The translations under genes were made by a program, and so were the position numbers. 13,681 nucleotides of DNA from Bacillota bacterium (lineage in GTDB: Bacteria > Bacillota_A > Clostridia > Lachnospirales > WQUN01): assembly GCA_009786175.1 (NCBI GenBank), contig WQTQ01000172.1:1-13681 (forward strand), read 5' to 3'. Each line of letters opens with the position of its first letter. Position 1 is the stretch's first letter. The notes below the pieces were generated by a model. The model did no database searches. It saw only the letters and a list, made by a program, of their open reading frames with translations, and was not told the origin of the DNA. Of the stretch, positions 303-12,875 are shown in pieces.

Positions 303-344
303 GCATTTGTACACAACTTTGACACAAATATGTGGTAATATAGT
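303..344 (+). promoter_or_regulatory. Promoter region of the two-component operon with candidate autoregulatory boxes
   Basis: TTGACA at 319-324 matches a -35 box, but the possible -10 boxes (TAATAT 336-341 or TATAGT 339-344) are only 11 or 14 bases away, so this is not a standard sigma-A promoter. CATTTGT (304), CAACTTT (314) and CAAATAT (325) form a 10/11-bp series resembling the boxes upstream of the serine hydrolase gene at 3402. If TAATAT is the -10, the two nearest boxes lie 11 and 22 bp ahead of it, the same geometry as at the hydrolase promoter. This suggests activation by the operon's own response regulator. Confidence 0.45.
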
Positions 345-366: not shown

Positions 367-1020
367 ATGCTGAAAGTACTAATTGTAGAAGACGAACACG
401 CAATCGCCAACTTAATATATGTAAATTTAACAAACGAGGGCTACAACTGCAAATGCGCCTATGACGGTAAAGCAGCCGCCGACCTTATCGAAAAAGAGCA
501 GTACGACCTGGTACTGCTTGACATTATGCTGCCGGAAATTGACGGATACGAGCTGCTGGAGTACATAAAACCAGATGCTACACCTGTGATATTTATCACG
601 GCCAAGGGCTCTGTAAACGACAGGATAAAGGGCCTTAAGCTTGGCGCGGACGACTACCTGGTAAAGCCGTTTCAAATTGGTGAACTGCTGGCCCGGGTGG
701 AAGCTGTGATGCGGCGATACGGGAAGAGTGAAAAACAGCTTGTAATTGCAGATGTAACAATTGATACTAATTCCCGCATGGTAACAAAAAACGGCGTAAA
801 TATAGACCTGACCGTAAAGGAGTTTGACTTGCTGGTAGAACTTGTCCGTAACAAAAACGTGGCACTGTACCGCAGCAGGCTTTACGAAAAAGTTTGGAAC
901 GAGGACTTTTTTGGCGAAACCCGCACATTAGACTCACATATCCAGCGGCTGCGTAAGAAACTTGGCTGGGAAGAGCAGATAAAAACTGTATTCCGCATCG
1001 GATACCGGTTGGAGGGATAA
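367..1020 (+). CDS. OmpR/PhoB-family response regulator
   Basis: A cytoplasmic DNA-binding regulator that takes phosphate from the kinase encoded next to it. The receiver domain (about residues 1-118) has the acidic pair E8-D9, the phosphorylation site D52 in LLDIMLPEIDG, the switch T78 in FITAKG, and K100 in LVKPF, all the residues required for activity. A winged-helix output domain covers about 125-217, with a recognition helix near RTLDSHIQRLRKKLG (186-200). The 217-residue length is normal for the family. The ATG at 367 follows GAGGAG (352-357). The stop is one base before the kinase ATG, so the two are co-transcribed and translationally close. Likely targets are the 11-bp boxes ahead of this gene and at 3320-3363. 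Which member of the family it corresponds to (VanR-, PhoP- or ResD-like) cannot be decided here. Confidence 0.95.
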   Translation: MLKVLIVEDEHAIANLIYVNLTNEGYNCKCAYDGKAAADLIEKEQYDLVLLDIMLPEIDGYELLEYIKPDATPVIFITAKGSVNDRIKGLKLGADDYLVKPFQIGELLARVEAVMRRYGKSEKQLVIADVTIDTNSRMVTKNGVNIDLTVKEFDLLVELVRNKNVALYRSRLYEKVWNEDFFGETRTLDSHIQRLRKKLGWEEQIKTVFRIGYRLEG

Positions 1021-1021
1021 A

Positions 1022-2416
1022 ATGCGGCTGTTCGCAAAATTTTTCCTGTGTGCCACAACGGTTATAAGCATCGCGCTTTTAGTCTCCGGGTACTTGCTGA
1101 TTACATTTTCTCACGAAAGCGCGGTTAAACGCGAATTAGAGCGGGCCGCAACCCAGTTTCAATTTGACAAGTTTGCTGTACAGGTCAGGCTGCTTTCCAT
1201 TGCTGCGGATGGAGAAATACCCGGCGGGGTACTAAGCGCGTGGGCGTCGGATTTAAGCGGGTTTGCCGCTTTTTTTGCATATGACAGAACCCTTTTGTAT
1301 TCAAATTTACCGGGAGAAACCGGCCTTGCGTTGTTGGAAAATGTATCGGACACCGCTCACGCTTACCGGTTTCAGACATTGGGCGAAGACAGCTACATCG
1401 TCCTTGCCGGAAGGCTTACACAAAACAACATAACCCTGTACCTGGTAGTTGCCACAGACATAACTGCCGTGGGCGCACTTCGCGAACAAATGACCCAAAG
1501 TTTTGTGCAGGTATATTTCATAACACTAATATCCGGCATGGTTGTAATTATGGTGCTGTCCGCATTTATTACCGGGCCCATAAAAAAAATGAGTAAGCTG
1601 GCGGCACAGATTGCCCGCGGCAATTATAACGAGCGGCTGCCTGTTGTCAGCCGTGACGAAATTGGCGCGTTATCCAACAGCTTTAACCTAATGGCAGATT
1701 CTATTGAAGGCAAAATTTACGAGTTGCTGGAAAACGCCCGCCAAAAAGAAGACTTTGTAGCCAATTTTGCCCACGAACTAAAGACGCCCCTAACCTCCGT
1801 TATCGGCTATGCAGACATGCTGTACCAAAAAGACCTGACACCGGGACAAACAAAGGACGCCGCCTGGTACATTTTAAACGAAGGGCTGCGCCTGGAAGCG
1901 TTATCACTAAAACTTATGGATTTAATCGTGCTTAACAGGCAAGATTTTGTTTTGGAAAATATATCTACGGAAGAGTTGCTGACAGACCTTTCCGGCAGCC
2001 TTATGCCCGTGCTGGAGGAAAATAACATCACCCTCAAAATTAACGCCGCCCCGGAATATATTTTAGTGGAATACGATTTGTTCAAGACACTGATGCTTAA
2101 TTTAATTGACAACGCCATTAAGGCCGGGTGCAGTACCGTGGAAATTACCGGCAAACAAGTTTCCGGCAGGTATGAAATAACAGTAATTGACAACGGCAGG
2201 GGTATGCCGGAAGCGGAACTTGCCCGCATAACCGAGGCTTTTTACGTTGTGGATAAATCCCGCTCTCGCAGGCAGCACGGCGCGGGTATCGGGCTGGCAC
2301 TTGCGGCAAAAATAGCCGCTATTCACGGCAGCACATTACAATTTGACAGCATTAAAGGCAGCGGCACCATGGTAAAAACCAATCTGGCTATAAGTGCGTA
2401 CACGGAGGACATATGA
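1022..2416 (+). CDS. Membrane sensor histidine kinase with HAMP domain
   Basis: Partner kinase of the upstream regulator. Transmembrane helix 1 lies at about residues 4-29, an extracytoplasmic sensor region at 30-162, and helix 2 at about 163-184. A HAMP linker (185-240) and a HisKA dimerisation helix follow, with phospho-acceptor H251 in NFAHELKTPLTSVIGY. The ATP-binding domain shows the N box (LNLIDNAIKAG, N364), the G1 box (DNGRGMP, 390-396) and the G2 box (HGAGIGLALA, 419-428). All catalytic motifs are intact. The sensor domain has no recognised fold, so the stimulus is unknown; the envelope-directed neighbours suggest a cell-wall signal. The start follows GGAGGG at 1011-1016, which lies inside the end of the regulator gene. 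The final codons overlap the next gene as ATGA (2413-2416). Confidence 0.95.
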   Translation: MRLFAKFFLCATTVISIALLVSGYLLITFSHESAVKRELERAATQFQFDKFAVQVRLLSIAADGEIPGGVLSAWASDLSGFAAFFAYDRTLLYSNLPGETGLALLENVSDTAHAYRFQTLGEDSYIVLAGRLTQNNITLYLVVATDITAVGALREQMTQSFVQVYFITLISGMVVIMVLSAFITGPIKKMSKLAAQIARGNYNERLPVVSRDEIGALSNSFNLMADSIEGKIYELLENARQKEDFVANFAHELKTPLTSVIGYADMLYQKDLTPGQTKDAAWYILNEGLRLEALSLKLMDLIVLNRQDFVLENISTEELLTDLSGSLMPVLEENNITLKINAAPEYILVEYDLFKTLMLNLIDNAIKAGCSTVEITGKQVSGRYEITVIDNGRGMPEAELARITEAFYVVDKSRSRRQHGAGIGLALAAKIAAIHGSTLQFDSIKGSGTMVKTNLAISAYTEDI

Positions 2417-3315
2417 AAAAGCAAAATATTTTTACCGTCATTGGCATGGCTTTGTCTTTTGTTATCGCCATTGGCGGGTGGGCTTTAATAAGCCGGTTAA
2501 TTGACATACGGTCTGACGCGCTGATGTCCGCGTCCGGGGTTTCCCCAATTGCAATGCCAATTGCTGTACCTGTGCCGCTGACGGAAGAAACCGGTAATGG
2601 GTTTGGCAATGGCTTTCGCCCATTGTTAACCGAGCAGGAAATTGTATCAATTTTACGTAACCGCGAAACTGTGGGACGGGCAATACCCCACGAGCCAACA
2701 CCGGAGCAAATTGATATGGATCGGGCAGTCCGTACCGCAAGGGAATGGTTATCCTTCATCGGCGATTATCTTTATATTCACCATGGGCTGTTTACTTTCT
2801 ACGATATAACCGCCGACCTTACCCAAAACCAGCAGCGGGGCAGTGACGGATTTCTGCCGCCACAGTACAGTTTTTGGACCGTAACGTTTTACGGCAGGCA
2901 TGCAACCGCCATGTTTCTTATTAACGCGGTAGAAGGGCAGGTGTGGCAGACAGAAATATCCCTGACTAACATGAGGCCGATGCACCTAACCCGGGACAGG
3001 TATCATTACACGGTTGTAGTCCAGGGATGGGGACATGAGGAAACCGCTTTTTATTTCGAAACCACCCTTACCGGTGCCGGCAACATGCTGGATGAATTTA
3101 TGTCTGTTATAGGCATAGACGCAGGTGAAAAGCAATATGACATATTCATACCCCGGCCCCCGCTTATTCGTGATTACTGGACTTGGCCCACAACAGGCGT
3201 ACGAAAACTTTTCGCTAATGAAGAGGCTTATGCGGCAGTGCGCATATACGGCACTTCCATGGACGGGGAGAGATGGTACATTAATAGTTTTACCATGCGT
3301 CTTGGGGTAAACTAA
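2413..3315 (+). CDS. Membrane-anchored extracytoplasmic protein of unknown function
   Basis: A 300-residue protein with a short basic N-terminus and one hydrophobic helix at about residues 6-29 (signal anchor or uncleaved signal peptide), so the rest should face outward. A proline- and glycine-rich linker (about 44-70) leads to a mixed alpha/beta domain. Residues about 103-185 run from a helix (AVRTAREWLSFIG) to strands with FWTVTFYG and then INAVEGQVW. That pattern resembles the end of a PepSY-type fold; this is a weak, inferred similarity. No catalytic motif or lipobox is seen. It overlaps the kinase stop by ATGA, implying translational coupling and a role in the same signalling unit, perhaps as a modulator of the kinase sensor domain. 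GGAGG at 2405-2409 is its ribosome site. Confidence 0.8.
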   Translation: MKKQNIFTVIGMALSFVIAIGGWALISRLIDIRSDALMSASGVSPIAMPIAVPVPLTEETGNGFGNGFRPLLTEQEIVSILRNRETVGRAIPHEPTPEQIDMDRAVRTAREWLSFIGDYLYIHHGLFTFYDITADLTQNQQRGSDGFLPPQYSFWTVTFYGRHATAMFLINAVEGQVWQTEISLTNMRPMHLTRDRYHYTVVVQGWGHEETAFYFETTLTGAGNMLDEFMSVIGIDAGEKQYDIFIPRPPLIRDYWTWPTTGVRKLFANEEAYAAVRIYGTSMDGERWYINSFTMRLGVN

Positions 3316-3319
3316 ATTT

Positions 3320-3370
3320 ACAACTAATCCGCAACTGAGCCGCATCTGTAAAACATCTGTCGGCTATGAT
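3320..3370 (+). promoter_or_regulatory. Activator-type promoter with four 11-bp tandem boxes
   Basis: CAACTAA (3321), CAACTGA (3332), CATCTGT (3343) and CATCTGT (3354) start exactly 11 bp apart, each preceded by a purine. They lead into a -10 box TATGAT at 3365-3370. The region where a -35 box should lie (about 3342-3347) does not resemble TTGACA and is covered by the third box. Direct repeats at one-helical-turn spacing next to a -10 box are typical of sites for OmpR-family dimers, so the regulator encoded at 367 is the natural candidate. Confidence 0.65.
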
Positions 3371-3401
3371 TATCTCAACCTATTTCAAGGAGAGATAAAT
3401 C

Positions 3402-4373
3402 ATGGTATACGAAAACCGGCAAAAAAAGGCATCGCGCGCACGAAAAGAACACAGAGCTTACATCACGTTTATAGTTTTGCTTTTTGCAATTCTTATATTT
3501 ACCGCGCACTTCCTGCTTACTAACCTGGACGAAGCGCGGGCCAACGTAACAGACGCATTATTGCAGCTTCAATACGCCCGTTCGGCAGCAAAAGAGGCAT
3601 TACCGCCTTTAATTGCACCGTCCTTAATTACGCCCCCTACTTACGAACTTGACGCACTCCTTATCCGCCACGGGGATTATTTATCGGTGTTTTTTCAAAA
3701 CATAGAAACCGGATTCACCTACACGTACAATGCGGACCGGGTTTATTTTTCCGCAAGTGTGCCCAAAGCCGTTTACGCGCTGTATCTTTTCCAATTGGCG
3801 GAAAAGGGAATTATTTGCCTGGACAGCATACACACATTTACTTACGCAGATGCCAACTGGGGCTCCGGCATAATACAGCGGCGGTACAGTTTTAGCGCGA
3901 CATTTACATTACGGGAACTGCTGCGGCTTAACATAAGCGAAAGTGACAATGTGGCAACCCTTATGCTAAGAAGAATCTACGGCCTGGACGGGTACAAAGA
4001 GTTTATCGCAAAGATGGGCGGCAACCCGGGCTTAGTAGGGTGCCGTGTCATGAACTCGAACCTAACCGCCAACGAAGCCGGACTTTTTGCCGGGGAAATT
4101 TTTGCATATATCGAATCCGGCGGCAAGTACAGCCAAGAGTTTAAAGAGCATTTGCTTAACAACCAATTCCCATTTATCGTGTCCTGCTACCCGGTGGCAA
4201 GCAAAACAGGCTGGACAAACCCAACCGCTTGGCATGACATGGCAATTGTGTACGCGCCTTCGCCTTATATTCTTGTGATTCTATCCGCAAGGGAAGGCTG
4301 GGCCGATGAAGATTATGCCGATTTTGCGGAAATTTCCATGGCGTTTCAGGAGTTTAACGATATGTGGTTTTAA
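3402..4373 (+). CDS. Membrane-anchored serine hydrolase, class A beta-lactamase / PBP-like fold
   Basis: A 323-residue protein with a basic N-terminus and one transmembrane helix at about residues 19-40, followed by a helical linker and an extracytoplasmic catalytic domain from about residue 83. The three active-site motifs of the penicillin-recognising family are present in order: S119-V-P-K122 (SxxK), S181-D-N183, and K268-T-G270. The SDN triad and spacing fit the class A beta-lactamase-like branch. The omega-loop region (about 208-225) has no ExxLN motif, so the glutamate used to deacylate beta-lactams appears to be missing. A D,D-peptidase, a penicillin-binding sensor or another acyl-transfer role is therefore more likely than beta-lactamase activity. 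It has its own promoter with tandem boxes and ribosome site AAGGAGAG ahead of the ATG. The product is not certain beyond fold and motifs. Confidence 0.85.
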   Translation: MVYENRQKKASRARKEHRAYITFIVLLFAILIFTAHFLLTNLDEARANVTDALLQLQYARSAAKEALPPLIAPSLITPPTYELDALLIRHGDYLSVFFQNIETGFTYTYNADRVYFSASVPKAVYALYLFQLAEKGIICLDSIHTFTYADANWGSGIIQRRYSFSATFTLRELLRLNISESDNVATLMLRRIYGLDGYKEFIAKMGGNPGLVGCRVMNSNLTANEAGLFAGEIFAYIESGGKYSQEFKEHLLNNQFPFIVSCYPVASKTGWTNPTAWHDMAIVYAPSPYILVILSAREGWADEDYADFAEISMAFQEFNDMWF

Positions 4374-5670: not shown

Positions 5671-5699
5671 ATGATAACAGTAAATACGCGGTTGGACAA
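5671..5699 (-). promoter_or_regulatory. Promoter of the lipid kinase-yraN operon
   Basis: On the minus strand, TTGTCC (5699..5694) is followed after 17 bases by TATCAT (5676..5671), a sigma-A pattern with a good -10 and a moderate -35. It is placed about 31 bases ahead of the chosen start codon and diverges from the atp promoter. Confidence 0.55.
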
Positions 5700-5712
5700 C
5701 TGCTTTTACACC

Positions 5713-5732
5713 ACCCCCTGATATCAGGGGGT
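5713..5732. promoter_or_regulatory. Perfect 20-bp palindrome between divergent promoters
   Basis: ACCCCCTGATATCAGGGGGT reads the same on both strands. It sits 13 bp from the lipid kinase -35 box and 17 bp from the atp -35 box. It could be an operator acting on both promoters. A terminator is less likely: no gene ends here, and neither side has a clean T-run. Confidence 0.6.
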
Positions 5733-5828: not shown

Positions 5829-6041
5829 ATGGATAAAGAAGATCGTAAAAATTTGGCAAAAGGCATGTCAACTGTCTCGCAACTGGGGCTTATTTCTTTA
5901 ACCTGCGTGGGTATTGGGGTTCTTGCCGGTTACTGGCTGGACAGGTTAACCGGCCTGGCTCCGCTGTTTATCATTGTACTGTCGCTAATTGGTGTTGCTG
6001 CGGCCATAAAAGCAATGATGGATTTTGCAAAAAAGCTATAA
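5829..6041 (+). CDS. atpZ: AtpZ-like ATP synthase accessory membrane protein
   Basis: A 70-residue protein with two transmembrane helices (about 18-36 and 44-64), separated by a short loop with GYWLDRLTG. This matches the small AtpZ-type proteins often encoded first in bacterial atp operons and grouped with AtpI in the F0F1-ATPase accessory family. They have been linked to magnesium or calcium handling or to assembly of the rotor ring. The start follows GAAGGTG (5814-5820) with eight bases between. The gene is the promoter-proximal member of the operon, 16 bases before atpI. Assignment rests on size, helix layout and position. Confidence 0.75.
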   Translation: MDKEDRKNLAKGMSTVSQLGLISLTCVGIGVLAGYWLDRLTGLAPLFIIVLSLIGVAAAIKAMMDFAKKL

Positions 6042-6057
6042 ATTTGGGGGAAACAGT

Positions 6058-6516
6058 ATGGAGTTTACAATAGATGCGGTTGCAAACAAAATGATTTTGA
6101 TAATTATCGGCCTTTCTGTACTTGTAATGGTGGGCGGGGTTATCTTTTTTCAGTTGCATCCGGCTTTTTATTTTAACGGGGCCTTTCCATTTGCCGTTGG
6201 TGCTGCCATGGCGATGGGGGTAAATATTGTCAAAGTAATTTGGCTTAAAAAAACCATAAACAAAACCGTAGACATTGATGCCCCACAGCACGCGAAACTT
6301 TTCTTTTCACTGCAATATTTTTTTCGGATTATATTTACCGGCGTGGTGCTTCTTATAGCGGCACTTGCCCCGGACAATATTGTTAATCTTTTGGGCGTTA
6401 TCATTGGGATACTTACATTCCCTGTTGCTATGCGCCTGATGCAGTTTTTTATCCCTGCAGACACAGCAATTATCAGCAAAGTAGATGATGCAGACTCTAC
6501 CGGAAAGGAAGACTAG
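6058..6516 (+). CDS. atpI: ATP synthase protein I (AtpI-like)
   Basis: A 152-residue integral membrane protein with four predicted helices (about 12-31, 40-60, 85-107 and 108-130) and a charged C-terminal tail. Position between atpZ and atpB plus this layout fit AtpI, which helps assemble the c-ring or supply ions and is not part of the final enzyme. AtpI sequences are poorly conserved, so position carries much of the call. An in-frame ATG at 6025 lies inside atpZ without a ribosome site. The ATG at 6058 follows GGGGGAAA (6046-6053) and is preferred. Confidence 0.75.
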   Translation: MEFTIDAVANKMILIIIGLSVLVMVGGVIFFQLHPAFYFNGAFPFAVGAAMAMGVNIVKVIWLKKTINKTVDIDAPQHAKLFFSLQYFFRIIFTGVVLLIAALAPDNIVNLLGVIIGILTFPVAMRLMQFFIPADTAIISKVDDADSTGKED

Positions 6517-6522
6517 CCATTT

Positions 6523-7227
6523 ATGGATTTTTCGATAGGGGTTTACGGCGCGGTAAGGATTACAGACAATGTTACTATATACATTACCGAAACATTACTT
6601 GTAATGTGGCTAATTATGGCTTTATTTATCACTTTTGCCGTGGTAGTAAAAATAAGGTCAAAAAAATGGGACCCAATGGACAAGCCGTCCGGGCTGCAAA
6701 ATTTTGTAGAATTTCTTGTATCTGCGTTCGAAGGGTTGTTTAAAAACAGTGCCGGGGAAAAAGTAATTTATCTGGCACCCTGGTTTTTTACACTGTTTTC
6801 ATTTTTGATTGTGTCCAACACAATAGGCGTTACGGGTCTTAGACCCCCAACTGCCGACTGGTCTATGACCTTTCCGTTGGCACTCACGTCCTTGGTACTT
6901 ATCCAGTATGCGGGGTTAAGGCACCGCCCTAAAAATTATCTAAAGGGCTTTCTACAGCCACACTGGGCCGTAGCGTTTTTATTCGTACCAATTAATTTAA
7001 TGGGTGAACTTGCAAAACCCATCGCCTTAAGCTTTCGTCTTTTTGGTAATATTTTGGGCGGCATGATACTAATGTCCCTTCTGTACGGCCTGACACCGCT
7101 GGTGTTCCGTCTGGGCTTCCCGGCATTTTTACACGCCTATTTCGACATAGCCGTCGGTATTTTACAGGCGTTTATTTTCACCGTAATAAGTATTACTTTT
7201 GTTGGCCTGGCCGCAGAAGAAAAATAA
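6523..7227 (+). CDS. atpB: ATP synthase Fo subunit a
   Basis: Stator subunit of the membrane motor that provides the two half-channels for the coupling ion. The 234-residue protein has several long membrane helices. It has the conserved segment GELAKPIALSFRLFGN (161-176), in which R172 is the essential arginine facing the c-ring. The C-terminal helix ends LQAFIFTVISITFVGLA. The N-terminal region is short, as in many Gram-positive subunits. The ATG at 6523 comes 6 bases after the atpI stop, with GGAAAGGAAG inside the atpI end as ribosome site. No missing residues were noticed. Confidence 0.97.
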   Translation: MDFSIGVYGAVRITDNVTIYITETLLVMWLIMALFITFAVVVKIRSKKWDPMDKPSGLQNFVEFLVSAFEGLFKNSAGEKVIYLAPWFFTLFSFLIVSNTIGVTGLRPPTADWSMTFPLALTSLVLIQYAGLRHRPKNYLKGFLQPHWAVAFLFVPINLMGELAKPIALSFRLFGNILGGMILMSLLYGLTPLVFRLGFPAFLHAYFDIAVGILQAFIFTVISITFVGLAAEEK

Positions 7228-7250
7228 AAACAATATTAGGAGGAAACACA

Positions 7251-7529
7251 ATGCATGATCCCTTAGCGTTTATCTTAGCCGTAACGCAAATTGCAGTAGC
7301 TCTGTCTCTTTGGACAGGTATCCTAACAACACTTGGGCAGGGTAAAGTTGCCGCCGCCGCGTTAGAAAGTATTGCCCGCCAACCGGAAGCAAAAGGCGCG
7401 ATTACAACCAACATGATAATCGGTTGCGGCTTTGCCGAAACAGGCGGTGTTTACGGTTTGCTGTTTGGCTTCTTGTTGCTATACGCTAACCCAATTGTAA
7501 ACCAGGCAATCAGCATTTTTGCCGGTTAA
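7251..7529 (+). CDS. atpE: ATP synthase Fo subunit c
   Basis: The rotor-ring proteolipid, 92 residues, two helices joined by the polar loop ARQPEAK (42-48). The ion-binding carboxylate is E63 in GFAETGGVYG. Q30, T64 and Y68 occupy positions equivalent to ion-coordinating residues of sodium-type c subunits such as that of Ilyobacter, so sodium coupling is possible. The inner helix is odd. The usual GxGxGxGxG run is here G23-I-L25-T-T27-L-G29-Q-G31, with leucine and threonine in place of two packing glycines, and a tryptophan at 21. AGGAGGA (7238-7244) is the strongest ribosome site in the operon, fitting the many copies of c needed per complex. Confidence 0.96.
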   Translation: MHDPLAFILAVTQIAVALSLWTGILTTLGQGKVAAAALESIARQPEAKGAITTNMIIGCGFAETGGVYGLLFGFLLLYANPIVNQAISIFAG

Positions 7530-7550
7530 TAAAACGAGGGGATGATTCTC

Positions 7551-8114
7551 TTGAACCCTCTACGGTTTATTTTCCTTAGCAATACAGAAACAACTTCTCT
7601 TCCCATGTTCGACCTGGCTGCTCAAACATTTTATCAAATGGTTCCGTACCTTATCAGTTTTGGTGTCCTTGTTTTCTTTTTTGCCAAATTTTTATACAAG
7701 CCCGTAAAAGAAATTTTACAAAAACGGGCAGACACCATTGCTGCAAACATTAAAGAGGCCGCAGAAAGCAAAGCCACGGCGGAAGAGTTAAAGGCCCTGT
7801 ACGACCAAAAGCTTAGGGACATTGAAGCTGAGCGAAACGCCATCCTGGACGAAGCCCGAAAGGAAGCTTCTGCCCGTGTCAGCCAAATTTTGGGCGAAGC
7901 CAAAATAGAAGCCCAAGAAGCAAAAGACCGGGCTAACCGGGACATTATCGCAGAGCAGGAACGTGTAAAAACACAAATCCAGCAAGCTATTATCGACATT
8001 TCTACAGATATGGCGTCTAAATTAATTTCTGTCACCATAGACCGGGCTGCTCAGGACAAATTGTTTGCGGAAGCCATGAACGAGTTAGAGGCCACGGCCT
8101 TCAAACCGTACTAA
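7551..8114 (+). CDS. atpF: ATP synthase Fo subunit b
   Basis: Peripheral-stalk subunit tying Fo to F1. From the chosen start it has 187 residues: a short N-terminus, one membrane helix (LISFGVLVFFFAKFLY), then a long alanine/glutamate/lysine-rich helix expected to form the b2 coiled coil. An ATG at 7542 directly abuts GAGGGG (7536-7541), too close for initiation. The TTG at 7551, nine bases further on, has proper spacing and is preferred. If ATG 7542 were used, three residues would be added. The gene lies 21 bases after atpE and 12 before atpH. Confidence 0.93.
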   Translation: MNPLRFIFLSNTETTSLPMFDLAAQTFYQMVPYLISFGVLVFFFAKFLYKPVKEILQKRADTIAANIKEAAESKATAEELKALYDQKLRDIEAERNAILDEARKEASARVSQILGEAKIEAQEAKDRANRDIIAEQERVKTQIQQAIIDISTDMASKLISVTIDRAAQDKLFAEAMNELEATAFKPY

Positions 8115-8126
8115 GGGGGCTGTAAA

Positions 8127-8660
8127 ATGGCAGACCTTGGCGTACGCTATGCAACCGCGTTGTTTCAATTGGCCCGGGAAAGCGGGCAGCTTAACATGTT
8201 TATGGAACAGTCCCGGTTTTTATGCGGCACATTTGAAGGGGAAGACGGCGCGCTGCGTATTCTTACCCACCCGCTGATTACCGCAGAAGAAAAAAATACC
8301 TTTGTAGACAAGGTATACGGCACGGTTATTCACTCGGATTTACTTGGGTTCATGAAGCTGGCAATTGCCAAAAATCGTGAGGCCTTCCTTTTGTCTGCCC
8401 TTACGCAACTGGAAGAAATGATAAAACGCCACCAAAACTACACTTCCGCAAGGGTAGTTTCTGCCGTACCCTTAAGCGACAGGCAAAAGGCTCAAATTTC
8501 AAGTACACTGTCCACCAAACTTGGCAAAACCGTTGACCTTACCTTAATTGTTGACCCTATGCAAATTGGCGGTATTAGCATACATGTGGACGGGTACTTC
8601 CTGGACCGCACGGTAAAAACCATGTTGAAAAATATGAAAGAATCTTTTGAATTAATATGA
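8127..8660 (+). CDS. atpH: ATP synthase F1 subunit delta
   Basis: A 177-residue OSCP/delta subunit that caps the alpha3-beta3 head and joins it to the b stalk. It has the typical N-terminal helical domain beginning [15 protein letters not shown] and the C-terminal motif [23 protein letters not shown]. The length is normal. The ATG at 8127 follows AAGGGGGC at a good distance. It is followed 16 bases later by atpA. Nothing unusual was seen. Confidence 0.96.
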
Positions 8661-8676
8661 TGAAGGGGCTGGACTA

Positions 8677-10224
8677 ATGATTTTACGGCCGGACGAAGTA
8701 AGCTCCATAATTAAGCAACAAATAAGGTCCTTCGCATCCAAAATGGATGTGGCGGAAGCAGGAAGCGTTATCCATGTGGGTGACGGTATTGCTCGTGTTT
8801 ATGGGTTAAACAATGCCATGAGCGGCGAGCTTTTAGAGTTCCCCGGTAGTGTGTATGGCATAGCCCTTAACCTGGACGAAGACAGTATAGGCGCGGTACT
8901 TCTTGGGGCAGACAGCCACATTAGCGAAGGCGACCCTGTAAAACGCACGGGCCGCATTGCGGAAGTGCCCGTTGGCGACGCATTACTTGGCCGGGTTGTA
9001 GACCCAACAGGCAAGCCTATTGATAACAAGGGGCCTATCCTTACCCACAAAACCCGCGTGGTTGAACGCATTGCTCCCGGCGTTATCGAACGCTACGAGG
9101 TAAATGTACCGCTGCAGACGGGTATCAAGGCCATCGATTCTATGATTCCAATCGGACGGGGCCAGCGGGAGCTTATAATTGGCGACCGCCAAACCGGTAA
9201 AACCACCATTGCCCTTGACACAATCATCAACCAAGCATTAATAAATCATAAGCTTAGCGCGCCAAAACACGGCGAAAAAGACACCCGTGTATATTGCGTT
9301 TATGTTGCCATCGGGCAGAAAGCGTCAACTGTTGCCCGCGTGGCGCGTACCCTTGAAAAAGCGGGCGCGCTGGAGTATACATGTATTGTAGCGGCTTCTG
9401 CCAGTGACACGGCACCAATGCAGTACATTGCACCGTACGCGGGCTGTGCAATTGGTGAGGAATGGATGGAAGAAGGACGTGATGTACTTGTTGTCTACGA
9501 CGACTTGTCTAAACACGCTGTTGCTTACCGTGCCCTAAGTTTGCTCCTTCGCCGCCCACCGGGGCGCGAAGCATACCCCGGCGACGTTTTCTACTTGCAT
9601 TCCCGCTTATTGGAAAGGGCCGCATGCCTTACAAAAGAGCGCGGCGGCGGTACGCTTACAGCCCTGCCAATTATCGAAACCCAGGCCGGCGATATTTCTG
9701 CCTATATCCCAACCAACGTAATTTCTATCACAGACGGGCAAATTTTCCTGGAATCGGAATCCTTTAACAAGGGTATCCGCCCTGCCATAAACCCGGGGTT
9801 GTCCGTATCCCGTGTAGGCGGCGCGGCGCAAATTGCCGCCATGAAAAAGCTGGCAGGCCCCCTTCGCCTGGAACTTGCCCAGTTCCGCGAGTTGGAAGCC
9901 TTTGCCCAGTTTGGTTCCGACCTTACCAAGGACACGCTGGACCGTTTGAACCAGGGCCGCCGCATAGTAGAAACATTAAAGCAGCCGCAAAACGCTCCCC
10001 TTCCCGTAGAGCAGCAGGTATTGGTTTTCTTTGCAATAACCAGGAAGCTTTTCACTGACATTGCCGTAGAAAACATCCGGGAAACAGAGCGGGCATTATT
10101 AAAATATTTTATGGAACATCACTGGGGTATTTTAGAAAAAATCCGTACAGATAAGAAGATTGACGGGCTTGAATATGCGATTGAAGACGCAATAAAGGCT
10201 TTTAAAGCCACGCGAGAGGGTTAG
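8677..10224 (+). CDS. atpA: ATP synthase F1 subunit alpha
   Basis: Non-catalytic nucleotide-binding subunit of the F1 head, 515 residues. It shows the P-loop GDRQTGKT (169-176), the segment [10 protein letters not shown] (209-218), [14 protein letters not shown] with the Walker B region, and [10 protein letters not shown] near the arginine-finger region. Between IINQ and YVAIGQK there are about 14 more residues than in the E. coli protein (about 188-203), a length also common in mitochondrial and alphaproteobacterial alpha subunits. Other motifs are standard. The ATG at 8677 follows GAAGGGGC. The gene is 4 bases ahead of atpG, so translation is probably coupled. Confidence 0.98.
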
Positions 10225-10228
10225 TAAT

Positions 10229-11155
10229 ATGCCGTCAATGAAAGCAATCAAGCGTAGACGCTTGACCGTAAAAAATATTTCCCAAATAACCAAGGCCATG
10301 AACCTGGTTGCAACATCTAAGCTGCAACGGGCACGAAACGCCCTTGCTGCCGTTGCAGAGCCTGTTCGGGCCACATTTGACATTGTATACAACACGGTTA
10401 GCCATCCGGATGCCCTGGAACACCCGCTAATGCAAATGCGCGATCCCGTTAAAAATACCGCCTACGTAGTATTTTCTGCTAACCGCGGGTTGTGCGGCGG
10501 GTATAATTCCGGCGTGTGCAAAGAGTTGATACGCCACGCTAAGCAGCAAGACAGCAACCCGATAATTATCCCCGTAGGCACGAAAGGGCGGGATTACTTG
10601 CGCCGCCGCAACTACAATGTTATGGAGTTTTCACCTGCTTCCGACACCGCTTCTTACGAAGACGCCCACACCATTTCCGATTTATTAGTGGAAATGTACA
10701 CAAAGGGCCAAGTGGACGAGGTGTACGTTGTGTACACAAAATTTGTTACAATCCTTAACCTGGAACCGATTGTGCGAAAAGTACTGCCTGTAGACCCCGC
10801 ATATTTACGCCGTGTTGTGGCGGATAATTTACCCGAGGGCGAAACGTGGGAAGACCTTGGGTTTTTCCCAAAGCCCGTGTCTAAGCCCGCCACAAATAGC
10901 CAAATCGAGTTTGAGCCGGGGCTGGAAGAGGTTTTGGCAAACGTAGTCCCCTGGTACTTGAGCATGTTTATGTACGCAGCAATGACATCCGCAATTTTAT
11001 GCGAACACGCCGCCCGTATGACCAGCATGGATTCCTCCACCAAAAACGCGACGGAAATTATAGATAAGCTGACACTGCAGTTTAACAGACAGCGGCAAAG
11101 CATTATTACACAGGAAATTACAGAAATTGTTAGTGGTGCAAACGCACTGCGGTAA
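10229..11155 (+). CDS. atpG: ATP synthase F1 subunit gamma
   Basis: Central rotor shaft of F1, 308 residues, somewhat longer than the usual 285-295. The N-terminal helix MKAIKRRRLTVKNISQITKAM, the core motif SANRGLCGGYN, and the C-terminal helix ending TQEITEIVSGANAL are typical of the family, and the two end helices form the coiled-coil axle. The extra length seems to lie in the middle around the segment with LPEGETWEDLGFFPKP (about 204-225), before the normal EEVLANVVPWYL. The start is 4 bases after the atpA stop, with GAGAGGG as ribosome site. No frameshift was seen. Confidence 0.97.
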   Translation: MPSMKAIKRRRLTVKNISQITKAMNLVATSKLQRARNALAAVAEPVRATFDIVYNTVSHPDALEHPLMQMRDPVKNTAYVVFSANRGLCGGYNSGVCKELIRHAKQQDSNPIIIPVGTKGRDYLRRRNYNVMEFSPASDTASYEDAHTISDLLVEMYTKGQVDEVYVVYTKFVTILNLEPIVRKVLPVDPAYLRRVVADNLPEGETWEDLGFFPKPVSKPATNSQIEFEPGLEEVLANVVPWYLSMFMYAAMTSAILCEHAARMTSMDSSTKNATEIIDKLTLQFNRQRQSIITQEITEIVSGANALR

Positions 11156-11167
11156 ATATAACGGTAA

Positions 11168-12595
<1,428 letters not shown>

Positions 12596-12602
12596 GTGCG
12601 TT

Positions 12603-12875
12603 ATGGCTGATAAAAAACTGGAACTGCGCATCATTGCCCCCGGCATGAACCTTGAAAAAAAGCCCCCCGCCTTTGCAGACATGGTAATTGTCCACTGCAT
12701 AACCGGCGAACTTGGGATACTGCCCGGCAGAATGCCCTGCAGCATGGTGCTGGGCAAAGGTGCCCTGCGCATACATGACGGCGAAACCGAATACCGTATG
12801 AAAATTGACGGCGGCATAGCAAGCGTAAGTAATGACGTTGTAACTGTGCTGTCCAATTCCGTGGAATGGGAATAA
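12603..12875 (+). CDS. atpC: ATP synthase F1 subunit epsilon, short form
   Basis: A 90-residue protein matching only the N-terminal beta-sandwich of epsilon, which binds gamma and the c-ring; HCITGELGILPGRMP (31-45) and the IDGGIASVSNDVVTVL stretch are typical. Most epsilon subunits are about 130-140 residues and carry a C-terminal two-helix domain that can inhibit ATP hydrolysis. Here the frame stops at TAA 12873-12875 directly after the sandwich. The sequence downstream becomes a hairpin, with no displaced helical coding visible, so the domain is absent rather than frameshifted. GTAGGTG spanning the atpD stop is the ribosome site. Natural short epsilons are known in some bacteria. Confidence 0.93.
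   Translation: MADKKLELRIIAPGMNLEKKPPAFADMVIVHCITGELGILPGRMPCSMVLGKGALRIHDGETEYRMKIDGGIASVSNDVVTVLSNSVEWE

Follow-up and report, generated by a model that had tools for sequence, protein, structure and literature searches.

Four tandem 11-bp boxes ahead of a clostridial serine hydrolase gene are very probably the landing site of the neighboring, self-controlling OmpR-family regulator

Introduction

PhoB and PhoP boxes are tandem 11-bp direct repeats that replace the -35 box and activate from there, and activator-dependent promoters of the PhoB/OmpR type carry their half-sites on one helix face, with the last of them 11 bp before the -10 box and no -35 box. OmpR-family regulators bind direct repeats in tandem, each unit roughly one helical turn long. 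WalR systems encode the membrane proteins YycH and YycI behind the kinase gene. The WalR (YycF) regulon of Firmicutes joins an OmpR-family regulator and 11-bp tandem half-sites to cell-wall targets, and the WalR boxes are quoted as TGTWAH-N5-TGTWAH (PMC9210968). Regulators of the OmpR family that pair 11-bp tandem sites with targets in the cell wall are a kind already known.

The 13,681 bases of clostridial DNA analyzed here (the window) hold a locus that shares with WalR the regulator family, the 11-bp tandem half-sites and the leaning toward cell-wall targets, and as in WalR systems a probable membrane protein is encoded behind the kinase gene. Unlike WalR, however, the regulator scores 186.6 bits against a YycF cut-off of 340, the motif is GATRCAA or RCAWCT, and the YycH and YycI Pfam families are absent among matches up to E 0.1 for ten third operon genes, the window's included. 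With PhoB and PhoP boxes the window operators have in common the tandem 11-bp direct repeats in the place of the -35 box; PhoB (TIGR02154) is the best NCBIfam model for the regulator, yet the score of 198.2 bits lies below the cut-off of 296.2, and no phosphate genes were seen among the targets tested. As in the van operons controlled by VanRS, the two-component pair of several relatives is followed by a gene for a VanY DD-carboxypeptidase or an alanine racemase, but the regulator reaches only 184.9 bits against a VanR-ABDEGLN cut-off of 350, and the gene in this position in the window encodes a serine hydrolase. Our search of the literature by title and abstract found no published description of this motif or module.

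Results

Genes of the locus

Three operon genes, an 86-base gap (3316-3401) and the hydrolase gene follow one another on one strand:

367..1020, + strand: response regulator of the OmpR/PhoB family (Response_reg and Trans_reg_C, Pfam)
1022..2416, + strand: sensor histidine kinase (HAMP, HisKA and HATPase_c, Pfam)
2413..3315, + strand: third operon gene, 300 residues, sharing 4 bp with the end of the kinase gene
3402..4373, + strand: serine hydrolase of the Beta-lactamase2 family (PF13354), with a hydrophobic N-terminal stretch

Membership of the regulator in the OmpR/PhoB family follows from PF00072 (107.7 bits) and PF00486 (78.6 bits), both above their cut-offs. The third protein has a single long N-terminal helix, a probable membrane anchor, and its domain perhaps has a fold like the C-terminal domain of YpeB. 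The hydrolase belongs to the Beta-lactamase2 family (95.8 bits, cut-off 22) and carries the SxxK/SxN/KTG motifs as SVPK at residue 119, SDN at 181 and KTG at 268, but with 55 bits against a cut-off of 200 it does not match the class A beta-lactamase NCBIfam model; judging by sequence, it is probably a peptidoglycan enzyme. Elsewhere in the window, positions 6025-12875 hold a run of genes that resembles an ATP synthase operon by sequence, with the subunits in the usual order.

Two promoters with 11-bp boxes and no -35 box

The gap ahead of the hydrolase gene holds two features, the first box starting 5 bases beyond the stop codon of the third gene:

3320..3358, + strand: putative hydrolase operator, four RCAWCT boxes with their C at 3321, 3332, 3343 and 3354 (from letters, shuffles and cross-genome ranks)
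3365..3370, + strand: -10 box TATGAT, 11 bp beyond the last box, without a -35 box (from letters, promoter scan and alignment)

A preliminary description of this DNA had placed CAACT at 3321 and 3332, CATCT at 3343 and 3354 and TATGAT at 3365, in one 11-bp register and with no -35 box, and in this it was right throughout: every letter and position agrees, the three steps from C to C are 11 bp each and the T of the -10 box follows after another 11, the scan of the + strand lists no sigma-70-like site here, and a 17-bp spacing would give GCATCT as the -35 box.

The pattern RCAWCT-N5 (x4), which we composed after seeing the hydrolase site, has a single match in the 13,681 bases on both strands, an exact one, even with 3 mismatches permitted, and occurred in 0 of 200 dinucleotide shuffles of the window. 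Positions 3316-3359 also show the highest 11-bp self-similarity in the window (rank 1 of 13,638), a value that none of 2000 shuffles of the intergenic stretch 3316-3401 reached. Yet in 30 shuffles of the whole window the maximum self-similarity averaged 32.9 and went up to 39, against 37 observed; periodicity alone is thus indecisive, and the case has to be made by the cross-genome comparison below. A second pattern, RCAWCT-N5-RCAW-N8-TANNAT, also composed with the window sites in view, matches the window exactly twice, at 313 and 3342; in 200 shuffles with one mismatch permitted, it was found 0.05 times on average and never twice.

The match at 313 lies in the promoter of the regulator operon:

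304..310, + strand: CATTTGT, off the 11-bp register by one base and probably no conserved box (from letters and alignment)
310..327, + strand: putative regulator operator, boxes TACACAA (310-316) and GACACAA (321-327) with an 11-bp period (from the profile of relatives)
336..341, + strand: candidate -10 box TAATAT for the regulator operon, with C325 lying 11 bp upstream (from the spacing in relatives)

Under a profile made only from the regulator promoters of three other genomes, 310-327 ranks first of 27,298 window positions. The elements listed here earlier (CATTTGT at 304, CAACTTT at 314, CAAATAT at 325 and TAATAT at 336) are all present, but the step from 304 to 314 is 10 bp, which takes the first of them out of register; the pair C314/C325, at 22 and 11 bp before TAATAT, holds and is kept in relatives. 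A TTGACA at 319-324 sits just 11 bp ahead of TAATAT, which is too close for a normal -35 box. A strong sigma-70-like match, TTGACA-17-TATATT, overlaps the regulator promoter on the minus strand (337-365).

Two or four half-sites, the last 11 bp before the -10 box, and no -35 box make up an arrangement of the activator type, and for this reason we prefer activation. One might instead propose that these are real operators of this regulator that repress, given their place over the core promoter: the boxes reach right up to the -10 box, and a third repeat overlaps it in some relatives (e.g., L114, L115 and L119). We regard repression as unlikely, because neither window promoter has a usable -35 box and the -10 register is fixed, as in activator-dependent promoters.

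A family motif at the regulator promoters of relatives

A regulator search of genome contigs kept 80 loci, L001 at 63% identity and the others at no more than 45%, of which only L001, L009, L015, L018 and L034 were used further; the relatives were reached through L001 and L018 and then through order and class searches. The comparison covers 49 related regulator genes (54-82% identical), namely those with a fetched locus, since loci were given for only part of the listed matches; the window's regulator and two regulators of 41% identity were left out. Within 160 bases upstream, 37 of the 49 carry GATRCA-N5-GATRCA with at most one mismatch, against a mean of 0.14 and a maximum of 1 in the shuffle control. 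The period of 11 is specific, as the same repeat at periods 9, 10 and 12 to 15 is found before 0 or 1 of the 49 regulators. A profile was drawn from 41 sites (8 of the 49 left out, L141 placed by hand), and at the fixed spacing the -10 box is recognizable in these sites, with T in 30, A in 38 and the final T in 35. The preliminary description had staked its case on conservation of the boxes in related genomes, and the tandem site before most of these regulators bears it out. Its motif R-CA(A/T)CT is present in the window, but the family consensus is GATRCAA-N4-GATRCAA, of which RCAWCT is the drifted form.

As we read the sequences, the lineage nearest to the window has a drifted box. The close-clade regulators of G050, G795 and G931 are 80%, 82% and 75% identical to the window's, and their promoters read CAACTTAGACACAA, CAACTTTGACACAT and CAACTTGTACACAT. 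In G050 and G795 the regulator promoter is the only exact match of the close-clade motif in the genome; in G931 the motif is exact at two other places and the regulator promoter has one mismatch. The genome scan for the tandem motif that had been suggested could be run but told us little: RCAWCT-N5-RCAW-N8-TANNAT with one mismatch gave 5 matches against 4 in the control for G050, 20 against 20 for G795 and 65 against 48 for G931, which is near control level, so that a wider close-clade regulon cannot be read from this pattern.

Some promoters of relatives show further structure. In G020 the regulator promoter (L180, L106) is a row of four 11-bp GATACAACT units with two degenerate units behind them, and further close copies of the site stand ahead of a solute-binding gene and a transport-permease gene of that genome (L193, L194). 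Inverted repeats, CCCCGTTATGA...TCATAACGGGG and ATATACTGTCCGC...GCGGACAGTATAT, lie at or behind the -10 box in L126 (from the -10 box to the start of the gene behind the operon) and in L085 (in the regulator leader), where they are possible leader hairpins or a second operator; none were seen by eye at the two promoters of the window.

A second site behind the operon

For 40 further loci, the DNA was taken in over as much as about 7.5 kb, counted from the start of the regulator gene. With the 41-site profile at a score of at least 11, a coding-strand site lies 2.7-3.3 kb behind the regulator start in 21 of 47 loci and an other-strand site in 2 of 47, and across the whole fetched stretches there are 51 coding-strand against 12 other-strand matches; the hydrolase site of the window is about 2.97 kb behind its regulator start. 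When gene order defines the place, as the gap that follows the third gene (or the kinase gene in loci lacking a called third gene), a score of at least 11 is reached on the coding strand in 17 of 45 loci and on the other strand in 2 of 45, and at a score of at least 14 the numbers are 16 and 0. These 45 loci are the 47 less L146 (kinase not directly behind the regulator, near a contig end) and L259 (no kinase frame), and since many of them are interrelated, independent events are fewer than the counts suggest. In 28 of the 45 the gap has no site at a score of 11; the window and the two close relatives are among them, their drifted boxes reaching 4.8, 7.6 and 10.1 with this profile.

A different OmpR-family regulator of the same cell, such as a WalR or PhoP ortholog, might bind the boxes in place of the adjacent one. 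WalR boxes share the 11-bp period, and in the form given above they resemble the reversed family motif TGTATC-N5-TGTATC; many of the targets, too, are cell-wall genes. We nonetheless think another regulator improbable, because the site recurs at the promoter of this very regulator in most relatives, because that promoter is the sole exact close-clade match in two genomes (G931, as noted, departs from this), and because the second site sits behind this same operon.

Ranking of the hydrolase site across genomes

A profile of the regulator promoters of G050, G795 and G931 (two boxes and the -10 box) puts the two window promoters at the top of 27,298 positions, that of the regulator first and that of the hydrolase second; with other ends, the same three promoters place the hydrolase promoter third, third and tenth for two, three and four box positions. 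The 41-site profile with equal weights ranks it only 13th of 27,298 (z 3.54), and 144th by the boxes alone, because the boxes of the window lineage have drifted from GATRCAA.

The gaps behind the third gene in the close relatives allow a more direct comparison (the G795 contig stops before this gap). G050 has CAAGT, CAACT, CGCCT and CAACT at exact 11-bp steps and then TATGAT, and G931 has CATCT, CAACT, an empty position and CATCT, with the same final spacing to the -10 box; at the third box position G050 keeps a degenerate box and G931 none. When the profile is built from just these two promoters, the hydrolase site comes out on top of 27,264 positions with four box positions (z 5.97), stays there with three and drops to second with two, and none of 300 column-permuted profiles (five promoters, three box positions) placed it in the top five. 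Because the -10 anchors of G050 and G931 were picked by eye in gaps of less than 150 bp, this forward test is slightly favored. The reverse test, with the hydrolase site as the query, builds its profile without any chosen anchor: with four box positions its best hits are the gaps behind the third gene in both relatives (first of 33,904 at the G050 locus, first of 37,904 in G931), with three it again ranks them first, and with two it ranks that of G050 first and that of G931 55th. The four-position query misses the relatives' own regulator promoters, which come in at ranks 74, 66 and 44. The four-position layout with the -10 box in register, as described from the window, recurs behind the operon in G050 and G931.

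For the hydrolase boxes to be a chance periodicity or a relic seems very improbable on these ranks, and we reject chance periodicity on the cross-genome ranking, where whole-window shuffles alone would not have done so. Both the self-similarity reached in those shuffles and the modest ranks under the all-relatives profile speak for chance; the first rank in both directions with four box positions, the 0 of 200 shuffles with the four-box pattern, the intergenic placement, the -10 register and the operon context speak against it.

A minus-strand reading of the boxes (GATGY-type units) was set aside, the fixed -10 register and the promoters behind the operons of relatives favoring the + strand. 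The boxes alone do not fix the orientation: pooled-box profiles without the -10 box score the minus strand somewhat better (four boxes, z 4.61 vs 4.17; three boxes, rank 3 vs 10), and so did the boxes-only profile of the close promoters. Two other matches were also set aside: 5689-5727 (+ strand), which lies ahead of ATP synthase-like genes, ranks second or third with several profiles and overlaps a terminator-like hairpin at 5713-5732, and a minus-strand match at 2660, which we put down to chance since it falls within the coding sequence of the third gene.

Genes behind the second site and the wider regulon

The gene in the slot behind this gap varies. By Pfam, 15 of 19 slot genes fall into a family, namely nine VanY, two N-acetylmuramoyl-L-alanine amidases (Amidase_3), two FemAB, an alanine racemase and a trypsin/PDZ protease, while the other four reach no cut-off; one of the VanY genes is in G931 and three are behind gaps lacking a strong site. 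Since L147, L234, L236, L239 and L251 were picked partly by look, the resulting 14 of 19 peptidoglycan enzymes is biased, and a fairer figure comes from gaps scoring at least 11, where 10 of 14 slot genes encode peptidoglycan enzymes (5 VanY, 2 Amidase_3, 2 FemAB, 1 alanine racemase); these 14 derive from 17 loci, with no gene called in L231 and L255 and with L263 left out. The slot gene of G050 is a short frame of 110 residues. The hydrolase itself was found in the slot of none of the genomes searched, with a best identity of 40% in 394 order and 391 class genomes (draws from larger groups), nor were relatives of it found in viral contigs, so the conservation concerns the slot and the operator and not this gene. 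Among protein clusters, a relative of the hydrolase apparently occurs with a relative of the regulator or third gene on seven contigs (23067, 37812, 25364, 13560, 5619, 19227 and 6283; all three genes on 37812 and 25364), an observation for which equal lengths are the sole basis.

Scanning 23 genomes with the family pattern including the -10 box gave 49 matches, about one third of them at the regulators' own promoters, where the reversed pattern used as a control gave 1; the set includes G106, G082 and G122, which have no listed regulator match and gave 1, 0 and 0 matches. The 22 genes examined behind non-self sites include, by Pfam, three LytR-CpsA-Psr proteins in three genomes, VanY, FemAB, alanine racemase (the last two being the same genes as in the slot set), NlpC/P60, an S-layer-homology peptidase and two HlyD, together with a number of genes not linked to the cell wall, for transport, lipoproteins and other functions. 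The putative regulon leans to the cell envelope, and the serine hydrolase of the window would be a fitting member.

Discussion

According to the preliminary description, both the hydrolase gene and the regulator's own operon are activated by the regulator at 367, and the conserved sites support control of both; binding and activation we infer from them. We consider it likely, on the evidence of sequence comparison, that the regulator binds 11-bp repeats and activates both promoters, with a kinase that senses an envelope signal and a peptidoglycan-modifying enzyme as the output. In this model the regulator (367-1020), presumably in a phosphorylation-dependent manner, would bind the direct repeats as tandem dimers, and the repeats would stand in for the -35 box. 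Two boxes would serve to activate its own operon of regulator, kinase and third gene, and four boxes the hydrolase promoter, where cooperative binding of two dimers is predicted. The kinase would sense a signal from the envelope, probably modulated by the membrane-anchored third protein, and the enzyme put out would in this case be the Beta-lactamase2-type serine hydrolase.

We lean toward the view that the module as a whole is undescribed: a regulator, a kinase, a membrane-anchored and perhaps YpeB-like protein, autoregulation and an exchangeable slot for a peptidoglycan enzyme, apparently present in at least three Firmicutes orders and with operators that have drifted together from GATRCAA to RCAWCT. 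Held jointly with that view, and with the same tempered confidence, is the reading of the slot as exchangeable, such that unrelated VanY, amidase, FemAB, alanine racemase and serine hydrolase genes come under the same operator.

This exchangeable slot is the part likely to surprise a specialist. That one regulatory slot holds non-homologous peptidoglycan enzymes suggests a purpose, namely the adjustment of cross-link or stem-peptide chemistry in response to an envelope signal. For a three-gene signaling operon of uncultured clostridia there is now an operator that can be read and a prediction of the output, and the motif points to cell-wall target genes in genomes for which we found no regulon of this kind described. 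If true, the joint drift of both operators from GATRCAA to RCAWCT would offer a natural series in which to follow the co-evolution of a regulator and its operator.
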